Source of the DNA: Microbacterium hatanonis
Lineage (GTDB): Bacteria > Actinomycetota > Actinomycetes > Actinomycetales > Microbacteriaceae
Length of the DNA: 64,000 nt
Direction of reading: 5' to 3'
NCBI RefSeq assembly: GCF_008017415.1
Contig: NZ_VRSV01000002.1
Span: forward strand, 682,001-746,000
Under the pieces are notes generated by a model. The model saw nothing but the letters and a program-made list of their open reading frames with translations. It was not told the origin of the DNA and ran no database searches. Position numbers and translations under genes: made by a program. Positions 986 through 55,829 of this stretch are shown here, piece after piece; within the stretch, counting starts at the first letter, position 1; each line of letters opens with the position of its first letter.

Positions 986-1016
986 GCGCGCCGCATCCGT
1001 CGTCGACACACCGGAA

Positions 1017-1055
1017 TCGGCCGAGGCGCCCCGCCAGGCGGAGCGTCTCGGCCGA
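1017..1055. terminator. hairpin between convergent genes
   Basis: Arms TCGGCCGAGGCGC (1017-1029) and GCGTCTCGGCCGA (1043-1055) pair at 12 of 13 positions with a 13-base loop. The hairpin lies between the GNAT gene and the convergent small gene, so it likely serves as a bidirectional terminator. No T-tract is present, which is usual at this GC content. Confidence 0.6.
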
Positions 1056-1072
1056 TGCGCGTGTATCGAGCG

Positions 1073-6035: not shown

Positions 6036-6104
6036 GCGTAGGAGATGCCCTCGGCGCAGGCCGATCCGGCGCGGATCGTCCTACGCCGGCTCCTTCTCCT
6101 ACGC
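6036..6104. repeat. family B palindromic element, copy 1
   Basis: Outer arms GCGTAGGAGA (6036) and TCTCCTACGC (ending 6104) enclose inner arms of the type CGATCC...GGATCG. It lies between convergent glyS and the HhH-GPD gene, whose TAG stop is the TAG of the element's own arm. A second copy is at 55667-55731. It may be a bidirectional terminator and/or a mobile REP-like element. Confidence 0.65.
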
Positions 6105-6674: not shown

Positions 6675-6712
6675 CCCCCCAGTGTGCCGCAGGGCCCCCG
6701 GCGGTGCCCGTC

Positions 6713-6777
6713 AGACTTCACCCGGGGCACGAGACTGCAGGCGTCGCACGCAGTCTCGTGCCCGGGATGACGTCTCG
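6713..6777. repeat. family A palindromic element, copy 1
   Basis: Long imperfect palindrome: outer arms AGACTTCA / TGACGTCT and an inner stem GGCACGAGACTGC / GCAGTCTCGTGCC with a loop containing CGTCGCAC. It lies between the 3' end of the MerR gene and the start of the HhH-GPD gene. Other copies are at 10366, 15295 and 46632. Confidence 0.75.
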
Positions 6778-6792
6778 CCGGGTGCCGGGGGC

Positions 6793-7668
6793 TCAGGTCG
6801 TGAGGGGAGCGTCGAGTTCCAGGGCAAGCTCCATGCTCCGTACAAGTGCGGGGGAGAACTCGTAGGGCATCATCCGGACGGTCTCGGCAAGGCTCGTCGA
6901 CCGGCATGCCGGTGCAGTCGCGGTCCCGTCCTCGGCGGGAGCGGGGTGAGACTCGGCCCCCTCGTCGAACAGGGCGCGTTCGGCCTGCGCCAGGCCGGAG
7001 CTCTCGATGACCGCGTGGAGAGCGGCCTCGAAAGCGCGTCGCTGGGCCGCCACCTCCGCCACGCGGGGGTCGTCGACGGCAACCGTGTCGTCGAGTGACT
7101 GTTCGGCGGCGTCGACCCGGTCTGCATGTTCGCGCAGATCGGGGTGCGTGGCGAGAGCAATGAACCGCGACGCCTGCACGGCCGCGCCGAGCGCGCCGAA
7201 GATCCGCTCGGTCACGAGCAGGGTGTCGAGGTCGTTCTGCCGCAGGGTTCCGTCGGGCAGGTCTGCGAGGCGGTCGCTCACGACGTCGGAGAGCAGGCCC
7301 AACCTGCTGCCCTGAGCCCGCATGCGCTGCACCGTGGCGCGCTGCTGTTCGAGTTCGGCCTGTCGGGCGACGAGGGCCCGCTCGAGGAAGTTCAGGATTC
7401 CGGCGACATCGCTATCGCCGTCGGAGGTGTCGTCCGCGAACGCGTCGCGGATGTCGTCGAGGGCGATGCCGGCGTCGGCCATCCGGCGGATCCACAGCAG
7501 CTGGATCATCTCCTCGTAGCCGTAGCGGCGGCGGTCGTCGCTGCCCCGCTCGGGCTCGGGGAGCAGGCCAATCTGGTGGTAGTGACGGATCGCCCGCGGC
7601 GTGGTGCCGACGAAGGCGGCGGCGCCGCCGATCGTGACCTGACGCGGCGGAATGAAGGATGAGAACAT
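6793..7668 (-). CDS. MerR-family transcriptional regulator
   Basis: A 291-residue regulator. Residues about 10-75 form the MerR winged helix-turn-helix: VTIGGAAAFVGTTPRAIRHYHQIGLLPEP followed by RRRYGYEEMIQLLWIRRMADAGIALDDI. A coiled-coil segment follows (ERALVARQAELEQQRATVQRMRAQ), then a roughly 170-residue effector domain I do not recognise. The ATG at 7668 was chosen because the conserved HTH begins about 10 residues later; a longer frame exists upstream but is unsupported. The gene lies downstream of, and in the same direction as, the carboxylesterase, which it may control together with itself. Confidence 0.88.
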   Translation of the reverse strand: MFSSFIPPRQVTIGGAAAFVGTTPRAIRHYHQIGLLPEPERGSDDRRRYGYEEMIQLLWIRRMADAGIALDDIRDAFADDTSDGDSDVAGILNFLERALVARQAELEQQRATVQRMRAQGSRLGLLSDVVSDRLADLPDGTLRQNDLDTLLVTERIFGALGAAVQASRFIALATHPDLREHADRVDAAEQSLDDTVAVDDPRVAEVAAQRRAFEAALHAVIESSGLAQAERALFDEGAESHPAPAEDGTATAPACRSTSLAETVRMMPYEFSPALVRSMELALELDAPLTT

Positions 7669-7704
7669 GGGGCGGGCCTTCCTGGGTGGGCGCAATACTG
7701 TCAC

Positions 7705-7732
7705 TGCACCACATGACGTCGCGGCAGGTGCA
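7705..7732. promoter_or_regulatory. possible MerR operator
   Basis: TGCACC (7705-7710) and GGTGCA (7727-7732) form an inverted repeat with a 16-base spacer containing TGACGTC, about 40 bases before the MerR start. MerR proteins commonly bind such dyads inside their own promoter. This is based on position and symmetry only. Confidence 0.35.
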
Positions 7733-7826
7733 AGTCCGGTGCGGGGCGGAGGAGGTGACCGGGATGCCGCGGCGGGCGCCGGTCGACGTGAGAGACCGAA
7801 GCGCGCGATGAGCAGGATCGCAGCCG

Positions 7827-9626
<1,800 letters not shown>

Positions 9627-9632
9627 GCCGAC

Positions 9633-9673
9633 CTTTCAATACGTTTCGTATTCAATACAAAACGTACTGAAAG
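9633..9673. promoter_or_regulatory. 41-bp palindromic operator, TetR/esterase
   Basis: Two 20-base half-sites (9633-9652 and 9654-9673) flank a central C. The right half matches the reverse complement of the left at 18 of 20 positions, with CTTTCA(A/G)TACGTTT(C/T)GTATT as the half-site consensus. The site begins 6 bases upstream of the esterase start and ends 25 bases before the TAGGCT of the TetR gene. It is strikingly AT-rich for this genome. It is most simply the binding site of the adjacent TetR protein. Confidence 0.75.
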
Positions 9674-9698
9674 ACGGTCGATCGTGCAATGCGGCGCG

Positions 9699-9704
9699 TA
9701 GGCT
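9699..9704 (+). promoter_or_regulatory. -10 element, leaderless TetR gene
   Basis: TAGGCT followed by 6 bases and the GTG start at 9711. Confidence 0.5.
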
Positions 9705-9710
9705 GACGGG

Positions 9711-10346
9711 GTGAACGAAGGCGAGCCGACCTCGGTGCGGCGTCGGAGCGAGACCCGCCGGCGTCTTCTCGCGGCCGCTGCTGCCTTGTTCGAGAGCACG
9801 GGCACGATAAGCCAGCGCGTCGAAGACATCTGCGGGCGGGCCGGCTTCACCCGCGGGGCGTTCTACTCGAACTTCACCGGTGTCGACCAGCTCTACCTCG
9901 CCCTGCACGAGGAGCAGGCGGCGAGGGTGTGGGAGCGCCTCCGGCACGCGCTCGACGCGCAGTTGGCGGAGGAGAGCCGGGCCGACACCCTCGAGGATGC
10001 CGTGGGCTTCCTTCTCGACTCGCTGCCGGACAGCCGCGAGTGGTTCTCGTTGAGGTCAGTGCTGCTGGCGCGAGCTGCAGCAGACCCCGCGTTCGCCGCG
10101 AGGATGACGCTCGACGACGGTCACGTCGGACGCGAGCTCGGCGACCGCTTCGTCGCCCTCGCTGCCGTTCATCATCGGGTCCCGGTTGTCGCCGCCGCGG
10201 TCCTGGCCAAGGCCGTCGTCGCGGCCCACGTCGGAGCCGTGAGTCAGTCGCCGGTCGACGTCAGCGGTGCGCTCACGCAGAGACTCACCGTCGCGGCGGT
10301 GATCCGGGGGCTCACCGTCGAGGCCGCCGCCCCCACTCGCACGTAA
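9711..10346 (+). CDS. TetR/AcrR-family regulator
   Basis: A 211-residue one-component regulator. The N-terminal HTH reads RRRLLAAAAALFESTG, then QRVEDICGRAGFTRGAFYSNFTGVDQLY, a canonical TetR DNA-binding domain. The rest is an all-helical ligand-binding domain with no recognised ligand signature. It is divergent from the carboxylesterase, and the 41-bp palindrome between them is a strong candidate operator, so I infer repression of both genes, relieved by a substrate of the esterase or a related compound. The GTG start fits the TAGGCT spacing. Confidence 0.88.
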   Translation: MNEGEPTSVRRRSETRRRLLAAAAALFESTGTISQRVEDICGRAGFTRGAFYSNFTGVDQLYLALHEEQAARVWERLRHALDAQLAEESRADTLEDAVGFLLDSLPDSREWFSLRSVLLARAAADPAFAARMTLDDGHVGRELGDRFVALAAVHHRVPVVAAAVLAKAVVAAHVGAVSQSPVDVSGALTQRLTVAAVIRGLTVEAAAPTRT

Positions 10347-10365
10347 GGCCGCAGCCCCCAGGACC

Positions 10366-10434
10366 GCGAGACTTCACCGGGGGCACGAGACTGCACGCGT
10401 CGCACGCAGTCTCGTGCCCGGGATGACGTCTCGC
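10366..10434. repeat. family A palindromic element, copy 2
   Basis: Outer arms GCGAGACTTCA / TGACGTCTCGC, inner stem GGCACGAGACTGC / GCAGTCTCGTGCC. Nearly identical to the copy at 6713, here in the 214-base gap between the TetR gene and the ABC exporter. The remaining part of this gap (10435-10560) shows only a GC-rich stretch and the promoter region of the ABC genes. Confidence 0.75.
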
Positions 10435-11577: not shown

Positions 11578-12395
11578 GCACCATGACCGCATCCCTGACC
11601 CCGGTCGCCGAGCGCGACCTCCGCAACCACGCGGGTGTCGCGCAGACCGTGCGGAACACGCTGACGATGGCCTGGCGAGGACTGCTCAAGATCCGTCGGA
11701 CCCCTGAGCAGCTCATCGACGTGACGGTGCAGCCGATCCTGTTCACGCTGATGTTCACATACATCTTCGGCGGCGCCATCGCCGGAGACGTGCAGAGCTA
11801 CCTGCCGATCATCATCCCCGGCATCCTCGTGCAGACGGTCATCACCACGTCGGTCGTCACGGGTGTGCAGTTGCGCGAGGACATGGACAAGGGGGTGTTC
11901 GACAGGTTCAGATCGCTGCCGATCGCCCGCATCGCGCCGCTGTCGGGAGCCCTCCTCGCCGACACCGTCCGCTACGCGATCGCGACCACGCTCACCTTCA
12001 CGATGGGGTTCATCATGGGCTTCCGTCCGGCCGGCGGCATCGGTGCGGTGGTCGCCGCGGGCGTCCTGGTCGTGGTCTGCTCGTGGGCGGTCAGCTGGAT
12101 CTTCGCCTTCTTCGGGGTGGTCGCGCGCACCGCCTCGAGCGTGCAGGGGGTGTCGCTGGTGATCCTGTTCCCGCTGACCTTCCTCTCCAACGCCTTCGTG
12201 CCCGCCGACACGATGCCCGGGTGGCTGCAGTGGTTCGTCGACATCAACCCCGTCTCGCACCTCGTCACGGCGGTGCGCGAACTCGTCAACAACGGCACGG
12301 TCGGCTCCGACGTCGTGATCACGCTGATCGGCGCGGCCGTGATCGTCGCGGTGTTCGCGCCGCTGACCGTGCGCACCTATATGCGCAAGGCCTAG
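11574..12395 (+). CDS. DrrB-type ABC-2 permease
   Basis: A 273-residue membrane subunit. After a cytoplasmic N-terminal helix (VRNTLTMAWRGLLKIRRTPEQLIDVTVQP), typical of DrrB/NodJ proteins, come six predicted membrane segments (examples: LFTLMFTYIFGGAIAG, IIIPGILVQTVITTSVVTG, AIATTLTFTMGFIMG, VVSLVILFPLTFLSNAFVP-like). The conserved FLSNAFVP..MP.WLQWF phrase is present. Translationally coupled to the ATPase. Its TAG stop overlaps the convergent stop of the AfsR-like regulator by four bases, so there is no room for a terminator between them. Confidence 0.9.
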
Positions 12396-15256
12396 CCGGC
12401 GCCCTCGTCGAGCAGGGCGGCGAGCACGGCGAATTCGGCCGCGGCGTCGGGGACTGGTTCCTCCGGCGCCGCGGTCATCCGTGCGACCAGGCGTGTGCGG
12501 AACGGGTCGTGCTCGTCCGGGCTCCCGCGCAGCACCGTGGCGGTCGCGAGCGCCCGGCGGGCCGCCGCATCCTGACCCGTCTCGACCAACCAGCCGGCCA
12601 ACGACAGCGCGACGTCGGCCATGATGGGCTGGTCGCCGCTGCGGATCGCGACGGGCACGGCGTCGCGCAGTGCCGCACGCGCCTCATCGGTGCGGTGCAG
12701 CAGTGTGAGAGCCTGCGCGCGCTTCGATCCCCACCACGCGGTCAGTTGCGAGGGGAATCCCGCCGGAAGGCCCCGGTCGAGCACGGCGAGCTCCCGCAGG
12801 GCCGCCTCGGCGTCGCCCGCCGCGATCTCGACGAGCGCCCGGCTCATCCGCACCTGTACCAGGGCGCGCTCCGAGCCGTCCTGCCGGGCGAACTCGTCGA
12901 GCTCATCGACCCGCGACCGGGCGTCGTCGACGCGCCCCAGGCGCACGAGCAGCCCGACGGTCTGCGAACGCTGCTGCACCGCGTCGCTGGCGGAGGTCAG
13001 GCCCGAGAAGACGTCGGTCGACCGATCGGCGATCTCGAGCGCCTCCTCGAGGCGCCCCTCCAGCATGAGCCACTCCGACCGCAGCTGCCCGGCGAACGCG
13101 ATGCCCCACGGGTCGCCGATCTCGCGGAATATGCCGAGAGCCAGCGTGCTCTGCTCGCCGAGCGTCTCGACGTCGCCGGAGTTCGCCGCGGCTCCCGCGC
13201 CGAGGACGCCGAGGAACGCCCGCGTCCACAGCGGGAGGCCGTCGGTCGGTTCTGCGGCGAACGTGACTCCGTGAGACCAGCTCAGGTCGCGGCCGAGGTT
13301 GGCCATCGCGTCGGCGATGCCGCGGAGAAGAGCGGGGAGCGCGGCGGCGATCTCGGACGGATGCTGCGCCGCGGCCGCGGCGATCTCGGCCGCTCGTTCG
13401 GCGAAGCGCGGCACTCCATCACGCCCGCCCGTGGTCGGTGTGAGCACGGCGCTGTCCATCACGAGGGAGAACGCGTCGGCAAGCAGTGCGATCCCTGCCA
13501 CGACGACCTCGGGTTCGGAGTCGAGGGCCTCGTCGGTCGCGGCGAAGACCGTGGCGTTCCCGGCCAGCTCGTGGGTGCGCTCGCGCAGGATCCACGGCCA
13601 GAGCATCGCCCGCACGAGGCGGACTCCCGTCCGGCGCCTCGAGGTCTCCGCGGCGAAGCGCAGCGCGCTCGAGAGGTTCTCCTCGTTGGCGTCGAACCAC
13701 GCGAGGCCGGCTCGCACCTCCGGGCCGCGGAGCGTCGCGTCGCGCAGGGCGGCCAGCTCGGCCATCGCCTCTGCCTGCGACGCGCGGAACCCGTCGTCGC
13801 GGCCTTCGGCACGGAGCCGGTCGAGACCGTACTCGCGCACCGTCTCGAGCATCCGGAAGCGTCCGTGCCGTCGGCTCAGGAGAGATCGGTCCACCAGCTC
13901 GTCGAAGGCCGACGCGGGAAGGTCGAAGTGCGCGCCGATCGTCGCCGCATCCGTCGCCGCGATGCCGTCGGGGAAGACGGCGGCTGCGAGGAGCGCCGTG
14001 CGTTCAGCGGGCGTCAGCGTGTCCCAACTCCAGTCGATGAGCGCCCGGAGCGTCTGATGCCGGGGCGCCGTCGCGCGAGGACCCGTCGCGAGCAGGTCGA
14101 ACCGGTCGTCGAGACCCGCCGCGATCTCGGTCAGCGACAGGGTGCGGGTCTTCGCCGCCGCCAGCTCCACCGCCAACGGCAGCCCGTCGAGGCGACGGAC
14201 GATCCCCTCGACCGTGGCCGCATCGGAGGGGTTGGGAACGGCTCCGGAAGCCGCGCGCACCCGGAGGCCGAACAACTCGACCGCGTCGGAGAGGGGGAGC
14301 GGCCCGAGGTCGACGAACGCCTCGCCCGGCACGCCCAGGGGCTCGCGGCTGGTGGCGAGCACGCGCGATCCGGGCAGGGTCTGCAGCACGTCGACGGCGA
14401 CGTCGGCCGCCTCGCGGGAGACGTGCTCGCAGTTGTCGAGCACGATCAGGGCGCGGCGCCCGGTGAGCGCCTCGACGACCCGGTCGCGCACGCCGATGGG
14501 CGCATTCGTCGCATCGGGCAGGCGCACGCTGCGCCCCACCGCGCCGGCGAGCGCGCCCCACACGTCGCCGGCGGCGACGGGGGCGAGCTCGACGATGATC
14601 GCGCCGGCCTGGAGGCGGGCCGTCTCGAAGGCGAGCGTGGTCTTCCCCGCTCCGCCGGGGCCGACGACCGTGACGAGCCGCTCGGAGGCCAGCTGCTCCT
14701 CGATGAGGGCGAGCTCGGACTCCCGCCCCACCAGGCTCGTGATGGCCGCCGGCACGGTGTTCGCGCGCGGGCCGTCGGCCGCCACGGTTCGGGCTCCGGC
14801 CAGCCGCTCGGCGTGGGCCCGGTCTTCCAGCAGGTCGCGCACGAGCCAGTCGAAGCCGTCGCCGGGGGTCCACGGGTCCCCGCTCCACAGCGACAGCGCC
14901 TCGCGCGCGAGCGAGAAGGCCTCGCGCGGATCGACGGCGGCCCGGGCGCGAGCCACCAGATCGGCGAAGCGCGTGAGGTCGACGTCGTCGCGCGAGAAGG
15001 CGAGACGGTAGCCGCCCGGTGCGGCGATCAGGGCGTCGGGCGGCAGCACGCGACGCAGGCGGGAGGCCAGCGAGTGCAGCGAAGCACGGGGGTCGGACGG
15101 GGGTTCCTGGCCCCAGATGTCCTCCGTCAGGGCGCGATAGCCCACGGTCGTCGCGGTGTCGACGGCGAGGCGCAGAAGCAGCGCCTGCTGCCCGCGACCG
15201 GTCACGACCGCCGATCCGTCCTCCGCGGCGAGCCCCCCGAAGAACCGCAGCTTCAC
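12392..15256 (-). CDS. AfsR/SARP-like regulator with NB-ARC-type ATPase domain
   Basis: A 954-residue multidomain regulator. Residues about 1-90 form an OmpR-type winged helix (MKLRFFGGL, RALTEDIWGQ, SLHSLASRLRRVL), followed by a shortened bacterial activation domain (about 90-150), then an ATPase of the STAND/NB-ARC class with Walker A VGPGGAGKTT (about 198-207), Walker B LIVLDN (about 270-275) and GSRVLATSREPLGVPGE. The rest is helical, TPR-like repeat sequence. Related Streptomyces proteins activate secondary-metabolism genes; here the target is unknown, but the convergent DrrAB exporter is a plausible one. The GTG start is 6 bases after TAGGGT. Confidence 0.88.
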   Translation of the reverse strand: MKLRFFGGLAAEDGSAVVTGRGQQALLLRLAVDTATTVGYRALTEDIWGQEPPSDPRASLHSLASRLRRVLPPDALIAAPGGYRLAFSRDDVDLTRFADLVARARAAVDPREAFSLAREALSLWSGDPWTPGDGFDWLVRDLLEDRAHAERLAGARTVAADGPRANTVPAAITSLVGRESELALIEEQLASERLVTVVGPGGAGKTTLAFETARLQAGAIIVELAPVAAGDVWGALAGAVGRSVRLPDATNAPIGVRDRVVEALTGRRALIVLDNCEHVSREAADVAVDVLQTLPGSRVLATSREPLGVPGEAFVDLGPLPLSDAVELFGLRVRAASGAVPNPSDAATVEGIVRRLDGLPLAVELAAAKTRTLSLTEIAAGLDDRFDLLATGPRATAPRHQTLRALIDWSWDTLTPAERTALLAAAVFPDGIAATDAATIGAHFDLPASAFDELVDRSLLSRRHGRFRMLETVREYGLDRLRAEGRDDGFRASQAEAMAELAALRDATLRGPEVRAGLAWFDANEENLSSALRFAAETSRRRTGVRLVRAMLWPWILRERTHELAGNATVFAATDEALDSEPEVVVAGIALLADAFSLVMDSAVLTPTTGGRDGVPRFAERAAEIAAAAAQHPSEIAAALPALLRGIADAMANLGRDLSWSHGVTFAAEPTDGLPLWTRAFLGVLGAGAAANSGDVETLGEQSTLALGIFREIGDPWGIAFAGQLRSEWLMLEGRLEEALEIADRSTDVFSGLTSASDAVQQRSQTVGLLVRLGRVDDARSRVDELDEFARQDGSERALVQVRMSRALVEIAAGDAEAALRELAVLDRGLPAGFPSQLTAWWGSKRAQALTLLHRTDEARAALRDAVPVAIRSGDQPIMADVALSLAGWLVETGQDAAARRALATATVLRGSPDEHDPFRTRLVARMTAAPEEPVPDAAAEFAVLAALLDEGAG

Positions 15257-15294: not shown

Positions 15295-15363
15295 GCGAGA
15301 CTTCATCCCGCGCACGAGACTTCACGCGTCGCACGCAGTTTCGCGCCTGGGATGAAGTCTCGC
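15295..15363. repeat. family A palindromic element, copy 3
   Basis: Outer arms GCGAGACTTCATCCC / GGGATGAAGTCTCGC form a perfect 15-base stem; the inner arms are more degenerate than in copies 1 and 2, but the loop CGTCGCACGCAG is shared. It lies between the 3' end of hemA and the promoter of the AfsR-like gene. Confidence 0.75.
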
Positions 15364-29946: not shown

Positions 29947-32477
29947 GCGACGCCCGGCCCTCTGGTCGGGGTGCCGTAGTCGGTGGTGCGGAGGCGGAAC
30001 GGGCGGAACAGGCGTGCGGCGATGCGGGAGGCGTCGGCGACCGGCAGCTCGAGCCCCTGCTCGACCCCGGCGTCGGGGAGGACGCGTCCGTCGAGGAGCG
30101 CGCCCCCGAGGTCGTCGCCGCCCGATCGCAGCAGCTCGGCCGCAGCATCCGTCCCGACCCGGGTCCACGGGATCTGCACGTGAGGGATGCTGCCGGAGAG
30201 CAGAAGGCGAGAGACCGCCACCATCGCGCGGTGCTCGTCGAGCGCAGCGCGCCCGGCGACGAGGGGGACGCCGCCGCCGCTGGCGAGCGGTGTCGGGGGG
30301 AGAGGGCCGGCGCCGCTGGCGAGCGGTGCCGGGGGGAGAGGGCCGGCGCCGCTGGCGAGCGGTGCCGGGGGGAGAGGAATGGGCACGAACTCGGTGAACC
30401 CGTTCGTCTCGCCCTGGATGCGGCGAAGTTCGCGCAGGTGCGCGACGCGCTCGGCGGCCGTCTCGACGTGGCCGTAGAACAGCACCGATGTCGAGCGGAA
30501 GCCCGCGCGATGGGCCGCGGTGATCGCCTCGATCCAGTGGTCGATCTCGGTGTCGCCGGGGGAGACGAGGGCGCGCACGCGCTCGCTGAGCACCTTCACG
30601 CCGGTGCCGGGGACGGTGTCGACGCCCGCCTCGCGGAGAGCGGCGAGGGCGCCGTCGAGACCGAGCCCGCCGCGGTCGGCGAGGTCCCACACGTCCTGCG
30701 GCCGATAGGCGTGCAGGTGGATGCCGGGGGCTCCGTCCTTCACCGCTCGCGCGATGCCGAGGTAGGCGCGGGGATCTTCCGCCGCATCGAGCCGCCCCTG
30801 CACGCACACCTCGGTGGCACCGAGGTCGGCCGCGTCGGCGGCGATCTGCGCGACGTCGTCGAGGCCGAACGTGCCCGGGCCGCCGCGACCGGCGGCGCGG
30901 AAGCCGGACGACGACAGATTGCGGTTGACGACGAGGCTGACGGTCTCACCGACGGTGTACCGGCGCACGTCGTCGGCGGTGGCCGCGAGGGCGTCGAGGT
31001 CGGGCCCCGTCGCCTCCAGCAGCGTCACCCACTCGGCGTCGTCGAGCGCCAGAGGATCGGCCGCGGCGGCTTCCGCGAGGCGCCGTGCGTCGCTGGTCGG
31101 TCGCCGGTCGGGTGAGGCGTTCCCGGTCGCGCGCGCGCGGCTTCCGCCCGTACCCGGGCTGGATGCCTCGTCGTCGGCGCGCTGCGCCGCGATTGCGGGG
31201 GTGCCCGAAGACGACGGCGCTGATGAGCCTGAGTACGGTTCGCGGGGTGCCGCCGTCACGTCGGCGGCCAACCCCGTCGCGGGATCGGCGAGGGCGGCGA
31301 CGGCGGCGTGGAGGGCCGGGTCGATCCACCGGGCGGCGTCGCGGACGAACGGGGGCTGGGCGGTCAGGCGCTCGCGCAGGGTGAAGCCGAGCTCGGCCGT
31401 CATGCGCGCGAGGTCGTCGAGGTGCGGCCACGGGCGCTCGGGATTGACGTGGTCGGCCGTCAGCGGCGAGATGCCGCCCCAGTCGTCGGCGCCCGCGCGC
31501 ACGAGGAGGGCGAACTCGGCAGCGTCGGAGAGGTTCGGCGGCACCTGGATGCGCATGTGGGGCCCGAAGACGAGTCGGGCCACGGCGACCGCGGCGACGT
31601 ACTCGACAAGGTCGGCGTCGGGGGCGTCCTGCATGGCCGTGCGCGGCTTCGCCCGGAAGTTCTGCACGATGATCTCCTGCACGTGCCCGTGACGCTCGTG
31701 CAGCTCGCGCATCGCGATGAGCGACTCGGCTCGATCGCGGAGGGTCTCGCCGATCCCGACGAGGATGCCCGTGGTGAACGGGATGCCCGCCGCGCCGGCC
31801 TCGTCGATCACCTTGAGCCGCAGGTCGGGGTCTTTGTCGGGCGACCCGAAGTGCACCTGCCCGGGCTCCTCGAAGAGTCGGCGCGAGGTGGTCTCGAGCA
31901 TCATGCCCATCGACGGGGCGGTGGGGCGCAGCATCCGCAATTCTTCGGCGTGCATGACACCCGGGTTCGCATGGGCGAGGAGCCCCGTCTCGGCGGTGAC
32001 CAGTCGCGCGATCGCGGCGACGTAGTCGAGGGTCGATGCATAGCCGTGCTCGTCGAGCCAGGCTCGGGCCTCGGGCCAGCGGTCCTCGGGCCGGTCGCCC
32101 AGCGTGAGCAGCACCTCTTTGCAGCCCATCGCCTGGCCCTGCCGCACGACCGCGAGCACCTGCTCGGGAGACATGAAGGCCGGCTTGCGCTTCTTCAGCA
32201 GCTGCCCCGGGGTGTCGACGAAGACGCAGTAGTGGCAGCGGTCGCGGCAGAGCGTCGTCAACGGCACGAACACCTTGCGCGAGTAGGTGATGACCGAGGG
32301 CTGGCCGGCGGCCGCGAGTCCCTCGTCACGGGTCGTCGTCGCGAGGTCGAGCAGCGCCTCGAGGTCGGCACCGGTCGCCGCGAGCAGCACCTCGGCTGCG
32401 TCGGCGTCGAGAGCCGCGCCCCCGCGGAGTGCGTCGAGCAGGTCGGCGACGGGAGATACGGTGCTGCCGACGCTCAT
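29943..32477 (-). CDS. fbiC: FO synthase (CofG-CofH fusion) with degenerate CofH half
   Basis: An 844-residue protein collinear with FbiC, which makes the F420 precursor FO from a ribityl-uracil and tyrosine. Residues 1-405 are a complete CofG half with the radical-SAM motif CRDRCHYC (Cys 77, 81, 84) and conserved TLGDRPE, PSMGMMLETTSRRLFE, GILVGIGET and VQNFRAKPRTAM. A roughly 70-residue Ser/Ala-rich linker follows. The CofH half (about 470-844) keeps LVVNRN, GATEVCVQG, DTVPGTG, YGHVET, GGFTEFVP and DDLGG. But where CofH has its CxxxCxxC motif the sequence is SSSGFRAAGRGGPG: none of the three Cys remains, and only one Cys (558) exists in the whole half. Residues 701-736 are three copies of a PLPP(A/T)PLASG(A/G)G unit. 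The CofH activity is therefore doubtful. The start is 6 bases after TAGCCT. Confidence 0.93.
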   Translation of the reverse strand: MSVGSTVSPVADLLDALRGGAALDADAAEVLLAATGADLEALLDLATTTRDEGLAAAGQPSVITYSRKVFVPLTTLCRDRCHYCVFVDTPGQLLKKRKPAFMSPEQVLAVVRQGQAMGCKEVLLTLGDRPEDRWPEARAWLDEHGYASTLDYVAAIARLVTAETGLLAHANPGVMHAEELRMLRPTAPSMGMMLETTSRRLFEEPGQVHFGSPDKDPDLRLKVIDEAGAAGIPFTTGILVGIGETLRDRAESLIAMRELHERHGHVQEIIVQNFRAKPRTAMQDAPDADLVEYVAAVAVARLVFGPHMRIQVPPNLSDAAEFALLVRAGADDWGGISPLTADHVNPERPWPHLDDLARMTAELGFTLRERLTAQPPFVRDAARWIDPALHAAVAALADPATGLAADVTAAPREPYSGSSAPSSSGTPAIAAQRADDEASSPGTGGSRARATGNASPDRRPTSDARRLAEAAAADPLALDDAEWVTLLEATGPDLDALAATADDVRRYTVGETVSLVVNRNLSSSGFRAAGRGGPGTFGLDDVAQIAADAADLGATEVCVQGRLDAAEDPRAYLGIARAVKDGAPGIHLHAYRPQDVWDLADRGGLGLDGALAALREAGVDTVPGTGVKVLSERVRALVSPGDTEIDHWIEAITAAHRAGFRSTSVLFYGHVETAAERVAHLRELRRIQGETNGFTEFVPIPLPPAPLASGAGPLPPAPLASGAGPLPPTPLASGGGVPLVAGRAALDEHRAMVAVSRLLLSGSIPHVQIPWTRVGTDAAAELLRSGGDDLGGALLDGRVLPDAGVEQGLELPVADASRIAARLFRPFRLRTTDYGTPTRGPGVA
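30270..30377 (-). repeat. 3 x 36-bp in-frame tandem repeat inside fbiC
   Basis: Three head-to-tail 36-bp units, each centred on CGCTGGCGAGCGGTG (about 30278, 30314 and 30350), almost identical and encoding 12 residues each (PLPPAPLASGAG type). The period keeps the reading frame. It sits where intact CofH proteins have a conserved loop before the (H/N)R.AVH helix. Such near-identity suggests a recent expansion. Confidence 0.85.
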
Positions 32478-40137: not shown

Positions 40138-40147
40138 CGCCTGGAAC

Positions 40148-40232
40148 CACGGGAGTCCGGTGAGCCGGGCTGAGAGGAAGCGATCCACGCTTCGACCGTC
40201 GAACCTGATCTGGGTCATGCCAGCGCAGGGAG
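40148..40232 (+). promoter_or_regulatory. TPP riboswitch (THI element)
   Basis: The leader of the ECF transporter operon contains the two conserved THI-box halves: CGGGAGTCC...GGGCTGAGAGG on the 5' side and CGAACCTGATCTGGGTCATGCC...GCGCAGGGA on the 3' side, separated by a variable hairpin (AAGCG...CGCTT). The ribosome site GGGAGGAGAG follows the last conserved bases at once, 4 bases before the ATG, so thiamine pyrophosphate binding probably blocks translation. No long terminator stem is seen, which argues against transcriptional control. Confidence 0.93.
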
Positions 40233-40240
40233 GAGAGAAA

Positions 40241-40876
40241 ATGCACACTTCCGCGTCCCCGTCCACCGGGACTCACCGCTATTCGTGGCGCGTCGTCGAC
40301 ATCGTCGTGGCCAGCGTCATCGGTGTCGCCGCCGGGCTGGTCTTCTGGCTGTGGGGCCAGGCCTGGCCGGTCCTCGACACCGCGCTGGCGTTCACCCCGG
40401 GCCTGTCGGGCCTCCTCGCCGGAGGCTGGCTCTTCGCCGGCGTGCTCGGCGGTCTGATCATCCGCAAGCCGGGTGCCGCGCTCTACACCGAGATCGTGGC
40501 CGCGGTCGTCTCCATGGCGATCGGCACCCAGTGGGGCTTCACGACCCTGATCTGGGGCGTGGTCCAGGGCCTCGGCGCCGAGCTCGCCTTCGCGATGTTC
40601 GCCTACGCCAACTGGCGCCTCGGCGTCGCTCTGCTCTCGGGCGCCCTCGCCGGTCTCGCTGTCGCACTGCTCGACACGACCTTCTCCTCGGTCGCCGCGC
40701 TCGCCTTCGAGGCACGGGCGGTCTACTTCGTCTCGGCGGTCGTCTCCGGCGTCGTGATCGCCGGTCTCGTCTCGTGGGTGCTCGCCCGAGCGCTCGCTGC
40801 CACCGGCGCGCTCGACCGCTTCGCCTCGGGTCGTGCGTACCGCTCCCGGGAGACCACCGCAGCCGACGCCGCGTGA
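40241..40876 (+). CDS. ykoE: ECF transporter substrate-binding subunit, YkoE (thiamine precursor)
   Basis: A 211-residue integral membrane S component with about six hydrophobic helices (VVDIVVASVIGVAAGLVFWLWG, LLAGGWLFAGVLGGLIIRKPG, TEIVAAVVSMAIG, WGVVQGLGAELAFAMFAY and others). The GLSGLLAGGWLFAGVLGGLI...RKPGAALYTE and QGLGAELAF phrases are typical of YkoE, which binds hydroxymethylpyrimidine or thiamine. Regulation by the TPP riboswitch upstream confirms the link to thiamine. The stop overlaps the GTG of ykoD. Confidence 0.92.
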   Translation: MHTSASPSTGTHRYSWRVVDIVVASVIGVAAGLVFWLWGQAWPVLDTALAFTPGLSGLLAGGWLFAGVLGGLIIRKPGAALYTEIVAAVVSMAIGTQWGFTTLIWGVVQGLGAELAFAMFAYANWRLGVALLSGALAGLAVALLDTTFSSVAALAFEARAVYFVSAVVSGVVIAGLVSWVLARALAATGALDRFASGRAYRSRETTAADAA

Positions 40877-43124: not shown

Positions 43125-43139
43125 CGCGCGGGGTGCCGT

Positions 43140-43204
43140 GACGTGCCGCGATCCGGGGCCTCCGGCTACCGGGTGACCCCCGATCGCGGCACCTCACCGG
43201 GTCA
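43140..43204. repeat. family C palindromic element, copy 1
   Basis: Arms ACGTGCCGCGATCCGGGG (about 43141) and CCCCGATCGCGGCACCTC (about 43177-43194) pair with few mismatches around a loop containing TCCGGCTACCGGGTGA. Lies between convergent ykoC and the APH-like gene and probably terminates both. A second copy in the same orientation is at 43996-44051. Confidence 0.7.
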
Positions 43205-43969: not shown

Positions 43970-43995
43970 TCCCCCATCCTGCCTCCGGGCCCGTC

Positions 43996-44051
43996 GAGGT
44001 GCCGCCATTCGGGGTTTCCGGCCGCGGGTGAGCCCCGATTGCGGCACCTCA
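43996..44051. repeat. family C palindromic element, copy 2
   Basis: Arms GAGGTGCCGCCATTCGGGG and CCCCGATTGCGGCACCTC with a loop TTTCCGGCCGCGGGTGAG. It shares arms and loop with copy 1, which lies on the other side of the APH-like gene, in the same orientation. Confidence 0.7.
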
Positions 44052-44060
44052 CGCCGTGGC

Positions 44061-44066
44061 TAGGGT
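44061..44066 (+). promoter_or_regulatory. -10 element, leaderless SDR gene
   Basis: TAGGGT, 6 bases before ATG 44073. Confidence 0.55.
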
Positions 44067-44072
44067 GGGCGC

Positions 44073-46631: not shown

Positions 46632-46700
46632 GCGAGACGTCAACCGGGCTGCGAGACTTCCGCCGAGCGGAGCAGTCTCGTCGCCGGGATGACGTCTCGC
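46632..46700. repeat. family A palindromic element, copy 4
   Basis: Outer arms GCGAGACGTCA / TGACGTCTCGC are a perfect 11-base match; the inner stem is GCGAGACT / AGTCTCGT-like with CCGAGCGG in the loop. It lies in the 160-base gap between the SDR gene and the DUF4407 gene. It shares its outer arms exactly with the other family A copies but has diverged inside. Confidence 0.65.
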
Positions 46701-54923: not shown

Positions 54924-55670
54924 ATGCGCACCGCGGGGGTCGACCTCGCCGCCGAGAGCACCAGGACGGCGCTGGCGGTCGTGGAATGGGGCGGGACGGA
55001 TGCGGCACTGACGCAGCTGTCGGTCGGTGTCTCCGACGACGCCGTCGTCGACGCATCCGCCGGCGTCGACAAGATCGGGATCGACTGCGCATTCGGGTGG
55101 CCCGACGACTTCGTGGCATTCCTCGTCGCGCACTCCGTCCCGGCCACGGCTCCGGCCGTCGACGGGGGCATGGACTGGCGGCGCACGCTCGCGTACCGCG
55201 AGACCGACCGCGTCGCGCGGCGGGTCACGGGGCGGTGGCCGTTGAGCGTGTCCACCGACCGGCTCGGGCTCACCGCGATGCGGTGCGCGGGGCTGCTCGG
55301 ACGGCTGCGCGACGCCGGGCGCGATGTCGACCGGTCGGGCGGCGGAGACGTCGCCGAGGTCTACCCCGGGGCGAGTCTGCGGCTCTGGGGGTTCGACACG
55401 ACGGGGTATCGCACCGATCCCGACGTGCGGGAGCGGCTTCTCGCGCGGGTGGTCGAGACGGCCCCGTGGCTCGACCTCCGAGGCCACGCCGACGCCCTCG
55501 TGCGCTCGGGCGACGCGTTCGATGCCGTCGTCGCGGCGCTCGCCGCGCGGGGCGCCGCCCTCGGCCGGTACGCGCCTCCCGAACCCGCGCAGCTCGAGCG
55601 CGCTCGGCGCGAGGGGTGGATCGCGCTGCCGACCGGCGCGCTCGCCGACCTCGTGGCGTCGCGGGGGTAG
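54924..55670 (+). CDS. DUF429 protein (predicted nuclease)
   Basis: A 248-residue DUF429 protein with an RNase H-like fold. The first strand is TAGVDLAAESTRTALAVVEW, with the acidic residue expected at a catalytic site; KIGIDCAFGWP is the second acidic strand, and DVAEVYPGASLRLWG and SGDAFDAVVAALAARG follow in the family order. A nuclease role is predicted from fold only. It starts 11 bases after rlmN and is probably co-transcribed with it. Its TAG stop is part of a family B repeat. Confidence 0.82.
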   Translation: MRTAGVDLAAESTRTALAVVEWGGTDAALTQLSVGVSDDAVVDASAGVDKIGIDCAFGWPDDFVAFLVAHSVPATAPAVDGGMDWRRTLAYRETDRVARRVTGRWPLSVSTDRLGLTAMRCAGLLGRLRDAGRDVDRSGGGDVAEVYPGASLRLWGFDTTGYRTDPDVRERLLARVVETAPWLDLRGHADALVRSGDAFDAVVAALAARGAALGRYAPPEPAQLERARREGWIALPTGALADLVASRG

Positions 55671-55731
55671 GAGATGGTGCGAGGGGAGGCCGATCGGCGG
55701 CGGATCGGCCTACGCCGACGCCTTCTCCTAC
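55667..55731. repeat. family B palindromic element, copy 2
   Basis: Outer arms GTAGGAGA / TCTCCTAC, inner arms GGCCGATC / GATCGGCC. It matches the copy at 6036-6104 in arms, length and loop (both carry CCTACGCCG...CTTCTCCTACG). As there, the stop codon of the adjacent gene is the TAG in the element's arm. The rest of the 159-base gap before the ABC genes holds an inverted pair of GGATGCTGC / GCAGCATCC at 55768 and about 55801. Confidence 0.7.
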
Positions 55732-55829
55732 GTGGGACGCACGCCGGCGACGGCTCGGCAGGGCAACGGATGCTGCGGACCTGCCCGTGAGAGTGGTGCG
55801 CAGCATCCGTTCACGGCATCCTCGAAGAC

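Follow-up and report, generated by a model that had tools for sequence, protein, structure and literature searches.

A dispersed 69-bp palindrome family of Microbacterium hatanonis and its association with a single-locus gene for an AbiEi-like protein with a putative PD-(D/E)XK-like domain

We analyzed a 64,000-nucleotide stretch of Microbacterium hatanonis DNA (contig NZ_VRSV01000002.1, positions 682,001 to 746,000; hereafter, the window) in which an initial annotation had placed four repeats at 6713, 10366, 15295 and 46632. These repeats were real, and the exact unit was an ungapped palindrome of 69 bp in all four (family A; Table 1). Each arm contained two boxes 19 bp apart, CGAGAC at 2-7 and 21-26 and the inverted GTCTCG at 44-49 and 63-68, and the four boxes were common to all copies. 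In most family A copies of the genome, the palindrome reached approximately 75-77 bp as ACC[69]GGT. Copies 1 and 2 were near-identical. Copy 4 had been described as keeping only the outer arms, which was wrong: both inner boxes, TGCGAGACTTC and GCAGTCTCGT, were present at the standard positions. The inner loop CGTCGCACGCAG was shared by copies 1-3 as described, but it was a local feature, and the four boxes were the family-wide one.

Table 1. Positions of the palindromes, genes and segment described in the text (window coordinates unless a contig, C1 or C2, is given)
Feature	Position	Strand	Remarks
Family C palindrome	1003-1069		CGGCCGAGRC..CGCCAGGCG..GYGTCTCGGCCG
Family B palindrome	6036-6104		69 bp; box CGTAGG/GGAGGA, spacing 18; same class as family A
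Family A copy 1	6710-6778		69 bp; mutated left outer box (GTCAGAC)
Segment between copies 1 and 2	6779-10365		~3.6 kb; missing at the site in both relatives
MerR-like gene	6793-7830	-	inside the copy 1/copy 2 segment
Carboxylesterase gene	7827-9626	-	inside the copy 1/copy 2 segment
TetR-like gene	9711-10346	+	inside the copy 1/copy 2 segment
Family A copy 2	10366-10434		69 bp; four perfect boxes
Family A copy 3	15295-15363		69 bp; two relatives hold subtype CGAGACCG... at the orthologous site
Family A copy 4	46632-46700		69 bp; four perfect boxes; orthologous in both close relatives
Second family B palindrome	55665-55733
Partner gene, paired with family A	C1 1768377-1769396		340 aa; single locus, between family A copies at C1 1768184/1769339
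DUF559 gene, paired with family B	C2 133673-134488		scores Pfam DUF559
Second AbiEi/PD-(D/E)XK-like gene (putative), paired with family C	C2 1127703
Gene paired with the ACTTCGG family	C1 398178

At the site of the segment between copies 1 and 2, one close relative (G050) carried one element exactly at the junction. The other (G140) carried a decayed element there, and similar esterase/TetR DNA (83%) was present elsewhere with no element. Copy 3 adjoined a gene for a large NB-ARC/AAA and TPR protein (STAND-like; 12392-15256, minus strand). The window also contained two more long palindromes of another repeat family at 43136-43200 and 43981-44070 (GAGGTGCCGC..GCGGCACCTC), 850 bp apart, and a 36-nt repeat in three tandem copies within a gene (30270-30377). 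An Rfam scan of the window gave a TPP riboswitch (40139-40248) as its sole match and none to family A.

Searched as an exact pattern, the outer arms occurred at 11 sites of the genome (3.545 Mb in two contigs, C1 and C2), against 0 for the reversed control. A covariance model detected 27 sites at E<1e-7 and a few weak ones; all 27 were 69 nt long (one aligned as 70 on one strand). Family A matches, nearly always of exactly 69 nt, were found in 84 of 149 Microbacterium species; 15 of 297 genomes from the order's other families also had them, a patchy distribution, and there was no match in plasmid, phage and viral collections. The four copies noticed initially are thus part of a family that has homologues in other species and varies between them.

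Family A is one member of a class of palindromes with differing boxes. When 840 kb of contig C2 was scanned for four-box palindromes irrespective of sequence, 31 intergenic loci were detected at spacing 19 and five at spacing 18, against 0-3 at any of the remaining spacings between 8 and 33. Three loci at spacing 19 fell in coding DNA, of which there was seven times as much. The 19-bp loci comprised approximately eight or more distinct boxes, with a total length particular to each family. Palindromes of the GTCGGAG family (L073 10068; C2 370835) had the centre TTTCACGTGAAA, which resembles a parS core. Tandem repeats containing GACGGTC occupied an apparently intergenic stretch at C2 118258-119000. 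In G432, a genome of another family, longer arrays with three to four boxes per arm at 19 bp were present (L152; L164 8390-8500 and 11190-11330); their 19-bp units (GCCGAGACCGnAC+6) converged on a central hairpin directly after stop codons.

One gene framed by family A copies, hereafter the partner gene, was used to search 149 Microbacterium species for homologs. Among the best 30 homolog loci, a family A element was present on both sides in 24 and on at least one side in 27; the flanks of close homologs are not independent observations, because all lie at one syntenic locus (594 of 630 pairs). Strict 19-bp palindromes were then counted at 70 homologous loci, where they lay on both sides in 31, on one side in 19 and nowhere nearby in 20. 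The corresponding counts at 499 control genes were 0 on both sides and 49 on one side, and the difference in both-side framing (31/70 vs 0/499) had a Fisher p of 5e-32, kinship of the species being ignored. The association of gene and palindrome is strong. Left and right boxes matched at 9.8/12 around the same gene and at 6.6/12 between different genes.

Species with the closest homologs carried elements more often (34/37 vs 50/112, p 2e-7) and more often had at least 10 matches (26/37 vs 15/112, p 2e-10; Spearman 0.64), kinship being ignored in these comparisons. There were counter-cases such as G032, G064 and G095, which had many elements and only a distant homolog. The M. hatanonis genome held at least four protein-palindrome pairs with different boxes (Table 1). 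No cognate gene was found for the box families GTCGGAG, GTGCCCG, CGCACGG and TCGGGGC. DUF222 (13E12/HNH) proteins were rejected as partners, since a palindrome of family B or C lay directly upstream of only two of the eight paralogs (L180-L187). A search for solitary half-elements as ends of larger transposons yielded only the framed DUF559 gene.

Profile searches indicated that the N-terminus of the partner protein is of the AbiEi type: Pfam AbiEi_4 matched at 5e-5, just below the cut-off, and PADLOC AbiEi profiles went down to 2e-11 in its homologs. Pfam AbiEi_4 matched only two genes. Across 59 homologs, E195, Q213, D227, E238 and D240 were invariant and K244 near-invariant (E..Q..D..E.D..K), which suggests a PD-(D/E)XK-like active-site pattern. 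An AlphaFold2 model had a pLDDT of 91 (89 for the C-terminal domain), and its top Foldseek match was 1zel, the AbiEi-type Rv2827c (prob 1.00, E 7e-3, TM 0.37). The fold search with the C-terminal domain returned Vsr, the R2 endonuclease domain, BsoBI and XisH, none at E<0.001; the TM score to Vsr (1vsr) was 0.43. A PDB sequence search with profiles of the partner protein gave no match, and direct profile comparison with two DUF559 proteins was weak (E 1.6e-4 and 0.007). Profiles and model together suggest that the partner protein joins an AbiEi-like winged helix to a PD-(D/E)XK-like (Vsr/DUF559-like) domain at its C-terminus. Nuclease activity is likely, judging from the motif together with fold matches that were not significant.

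Insertion sites were compared with those of relatives, as the initial annotation had proposed, and variation was found. Most family A sites of the genome were common to close relatives. At C1 580273, 758269 and 1948062, C2 957635 and window position 15295, the subtype had been swapped in place, with the KTCATCC subtype in one lineage and a CGAGACC subtype in another. These swaps exchanged the whole interior, while conservation of the flanks reached as far as the outer boxes and the length was unchanged. At C2 576815 the element was absent in both relatives, and at C2 619267 G140 carried a CGGAGG-type palindrome instead of family A. No excision or insertion event was observed. Non-box identity among the copies of the genome was at most 0.81 except for the copy 1/copy 2 pair; because no other two copies were close, there was no recent burst of copying.

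We propose a two-part system in which family A forms the non-coding, dispersed half and the framed, single-locus, vertically inherited AbiEi/PD-(D/E)XK-like gene the other half, the protein binding and cutting the element and thereby allowing its conversion in place. We give this reading a probability of about 0.68. The framing suggests a so far unrecognised counterpart of the REP/RAYT partnership that uses an unrelated protein. We infer the following course of binding, cutting and copying. The winged helix of the partner would read the boxes, two per arm and 19 bp apart, and the C-terminal domain would nick or cut the element, either as a duplex or as an extruded hairpin. With a further copy as template, repair or copying would then overwrite elements in place, and the same route might rarely seed an element at a new site. 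Copies would last at places where they do no harm or are of use, a short way past stop codons and in the gaps of convergent gene pairs, and the 33-bp hairpin of the element may double as a bidirectional terminator or insulator, a possible benefit to the host. A broader formulation is more tentative, and we consider it possible but doubtful: that this is a repeat system unrelated to transposases, in which the palindromes of a nuclease-fold protein, read through the two boxes at 19-bp distance in either arm, multiply and replace each other through homing-like cut-and-repair instead of transposition, have diversified into many box specificities across Actinobacteria and have settled as transcription boundaries at 3' ends.

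The main rival is a regulator or insulator protein that does not cut. Here the partner would be a DNA-binding regulator or nucleoid protein and nothing would be mobile; the flanking palindromes would be autoregulatory operators, and the dispersed copies would insulate convergent units. AbiEi-type proteins, including the top fold match Rv2827c, bind inverted repeats adjoining their own gene, in its promoter (PMC7319586). The boxes are also under purifying selection in situ, a point in favour of the two-part reading as well: when the source genome was compared with its two close relatives (92-95% identical around the sites), divergence at orthologous sites was 2.2% in boxes, 12% in flanks, 15% in the rest of the stem and 21% in the loop. 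The absence of recent copies and the strong 3'-end placing of the elements agree with such a protein as well. However, palindromes stand on both sides of the gene, beyond the promoter alone, and whole interiors are swapped in place. Pairing of the non-box arm is kept by paired changes, which duplex binding would not need: both sides had changed in 24 of 33 pairs, with 172 cells against 60 +- 7 in shuffles (32 sequences), in a sample of one sequence per species that was chosen by the structure model and so leans towards pairing. The conserved E..D..E.D..K residues, in turn, suggest catalysis. We consider the regulator unlikely.

The elements had also been suggested to be recruited as terminators, and their position agrees with this. 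The median distance of copies downstream of a stop codon was 25 nt. With gene calls from a simple codon-usage script rather than a standard gene finder, 78 copies comprised 39 between convergent, 34 between co-oriented and 5 between divergent genes, and the convergent share (39/78) compares with approximately 15% of gene pairs genome-wide. The RNA-level signature was not there: on the transcribed strand, G.U pairs numbered 42 and A.C pairs 53, with no excess of G.U. Because G.U is not commoner than A.C, pairing is kept at the DNA level or by palindrome correction, and not for RNA. That family A consists of nothing but bidirectional intrinsic terminators whose likeness is incidental is quite improbable, even with such strong hairpins and with an ordinary hairpin in G093 near the site corresponding to copy 1, since termination predicts neither the fixed 69-bp length, nor four identical boxes at 19-bp spacing, nor the association with a single gene. 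As a side effect of the element, termination is plausible, but it does not explain the conserved boxes.

The partner gene might instead have hitch-hiked, being contained by chance in an old palindrome-rich locus, as the shared location of the closest homologs would allow. This is very improbable. Distant homologs were framed by other boxes, identical on both sides (TAAACGC, CTAGCG, TCCGCAAG, GAAACCA and others), and the more similar the proteins, the more similar the boxes tended to be (r 0.42, p 0.0005 in a Mantel test that ignored kinship). At the syntenic partner locus, the flanking palindromes differed between species, yet dispersed copies resembled those beside their own species' gene (0.62 vs 0.45, p 2e-4, kinship ignored). 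The four pairs within one genome also argue against chance containment.

REP elements are palindromes scattered over intergenic DNA close to the 3' ends of genes, and several gene-repeat pairs may occur per genome (PMC3116915, PMC8049555, PMC3733652). The RAYT gene is single-copy, vertically inherited and flanked by its own repeat, and genomes with the gene are richer in repeats (PMC8049555, PMC3116915). The first description of family A as REP/MITE-type held in part, for the intergenic copies near 3' ends, the species-specific types, the partner gene and one empty site; its RAYT and MITE forms were not supported. The RAYT profile PF01797 (Y1/RAYT) had no match in the genome and matched in five control genomes. 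A MITE form found no support: no target duplication was seen by eye outside ACC..GGT in the 27 own-genome copies, and there were no recent near-identical dispersed copies such as a burst would leave. No unpaired GTAG or CGTC tag, as carried by REP classes (PMC3733652), was evident; family A ends were paired as ACC-GCGAGAC / GTCTCGC-GGT. It is thus scarcely credible that these are classical REP/REPIN elements moved by a RAYT or that they are MITEs belonging to a DDE insertion sequence, although the palindromes are intergenic and dispersed and frame one gene, because the framed genes examined encoded neither Y1 nor DDE transposases and none was a DDE transposase with family A ends.

The proposed pairing resembles REP/REPIN-RAYT in its dispersed 3'-end palindromes, its single-copy framed gene, its several pairs per genome and the greater number of repeats where the gene is present. 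It differs in having no Y1/HUH protein: the partner is predicted to combine an AbiEi winged helix with a PD-(D/E)XK-like domain, and the element has two boxes per arm at 19 bp and a fixed 69 bp. To our knowledge, RAYTs are the one dedicated partner type of REP/REPIN elements. The pairing would be a system of a new kind that operates in the manner of REPIN/RAYT; if the kind is defined by logic instead of components, it could also count as a variant. No prior description of the pairing was found in the open-access literature that was searched, paywalled work being outside the scope. The same genomic logic, in which a domesticated lone gene is framed by the palindrome whose dozens of copies it presumably maintains, would operate with a protein and a DNA architecture that are both unrelated, and with many specificities inside a single genus. 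It would account for many strong intergenic palindromes of Microbacterium, and the long retention of such pairs by bacteria would become testable in a second, independent system. It also offers orphan genes of the AbiEi/DUF559 type a function that can be put to the test; we know of no biochemical function of the DUF559-type framed genes.

Other known systems share single features with the pair. AbiEi antitoxins (AbiEi, M. tuberculosis Rv2827c) are similar in the N-terminal domain by profile and fold, whereas the partner has the C-terminal PD-(D/E)XK-like domain and its repeats are dispersed genome-wide. Compared with AbiE toxin-antitoxin loci, the partner gene was directly flanked by palindromes, and no toxin-like neighbour was noticed in an unsystematic look. 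DUF559, MTES_1575-type and Vsr-like proteins share the C-terminal D..(E)xDGxxK/H pattern, and the gene framed by family B scores as DUF559; unlike for Vsr, no mismatch-repair context was seen at the framed genes. MITEs are also short non-coding inverted repeats in many copies, but the interiors of family A vary between copies while the exact length is kept. Tn402/Tn5053 ends carry arrayed 19-bp TniA repeats and are similar in this respect, but the framed gene is not TniA/DDE.

Two further arrangements were observed around partner homologs. In G113, three near-identical tandem elements approximately 133 bp apart flanked the partner gene on one side, and a single element stood on the opposite side (L158 10640, 10773, 10905, 12110). 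Distant homologs with 32-34% identity (L235, at C1 1924000-1929200, L265 and L266) had inverted GGAATGTGGCGCATTCC-like sequences on both sides in place of four-box palindromes.
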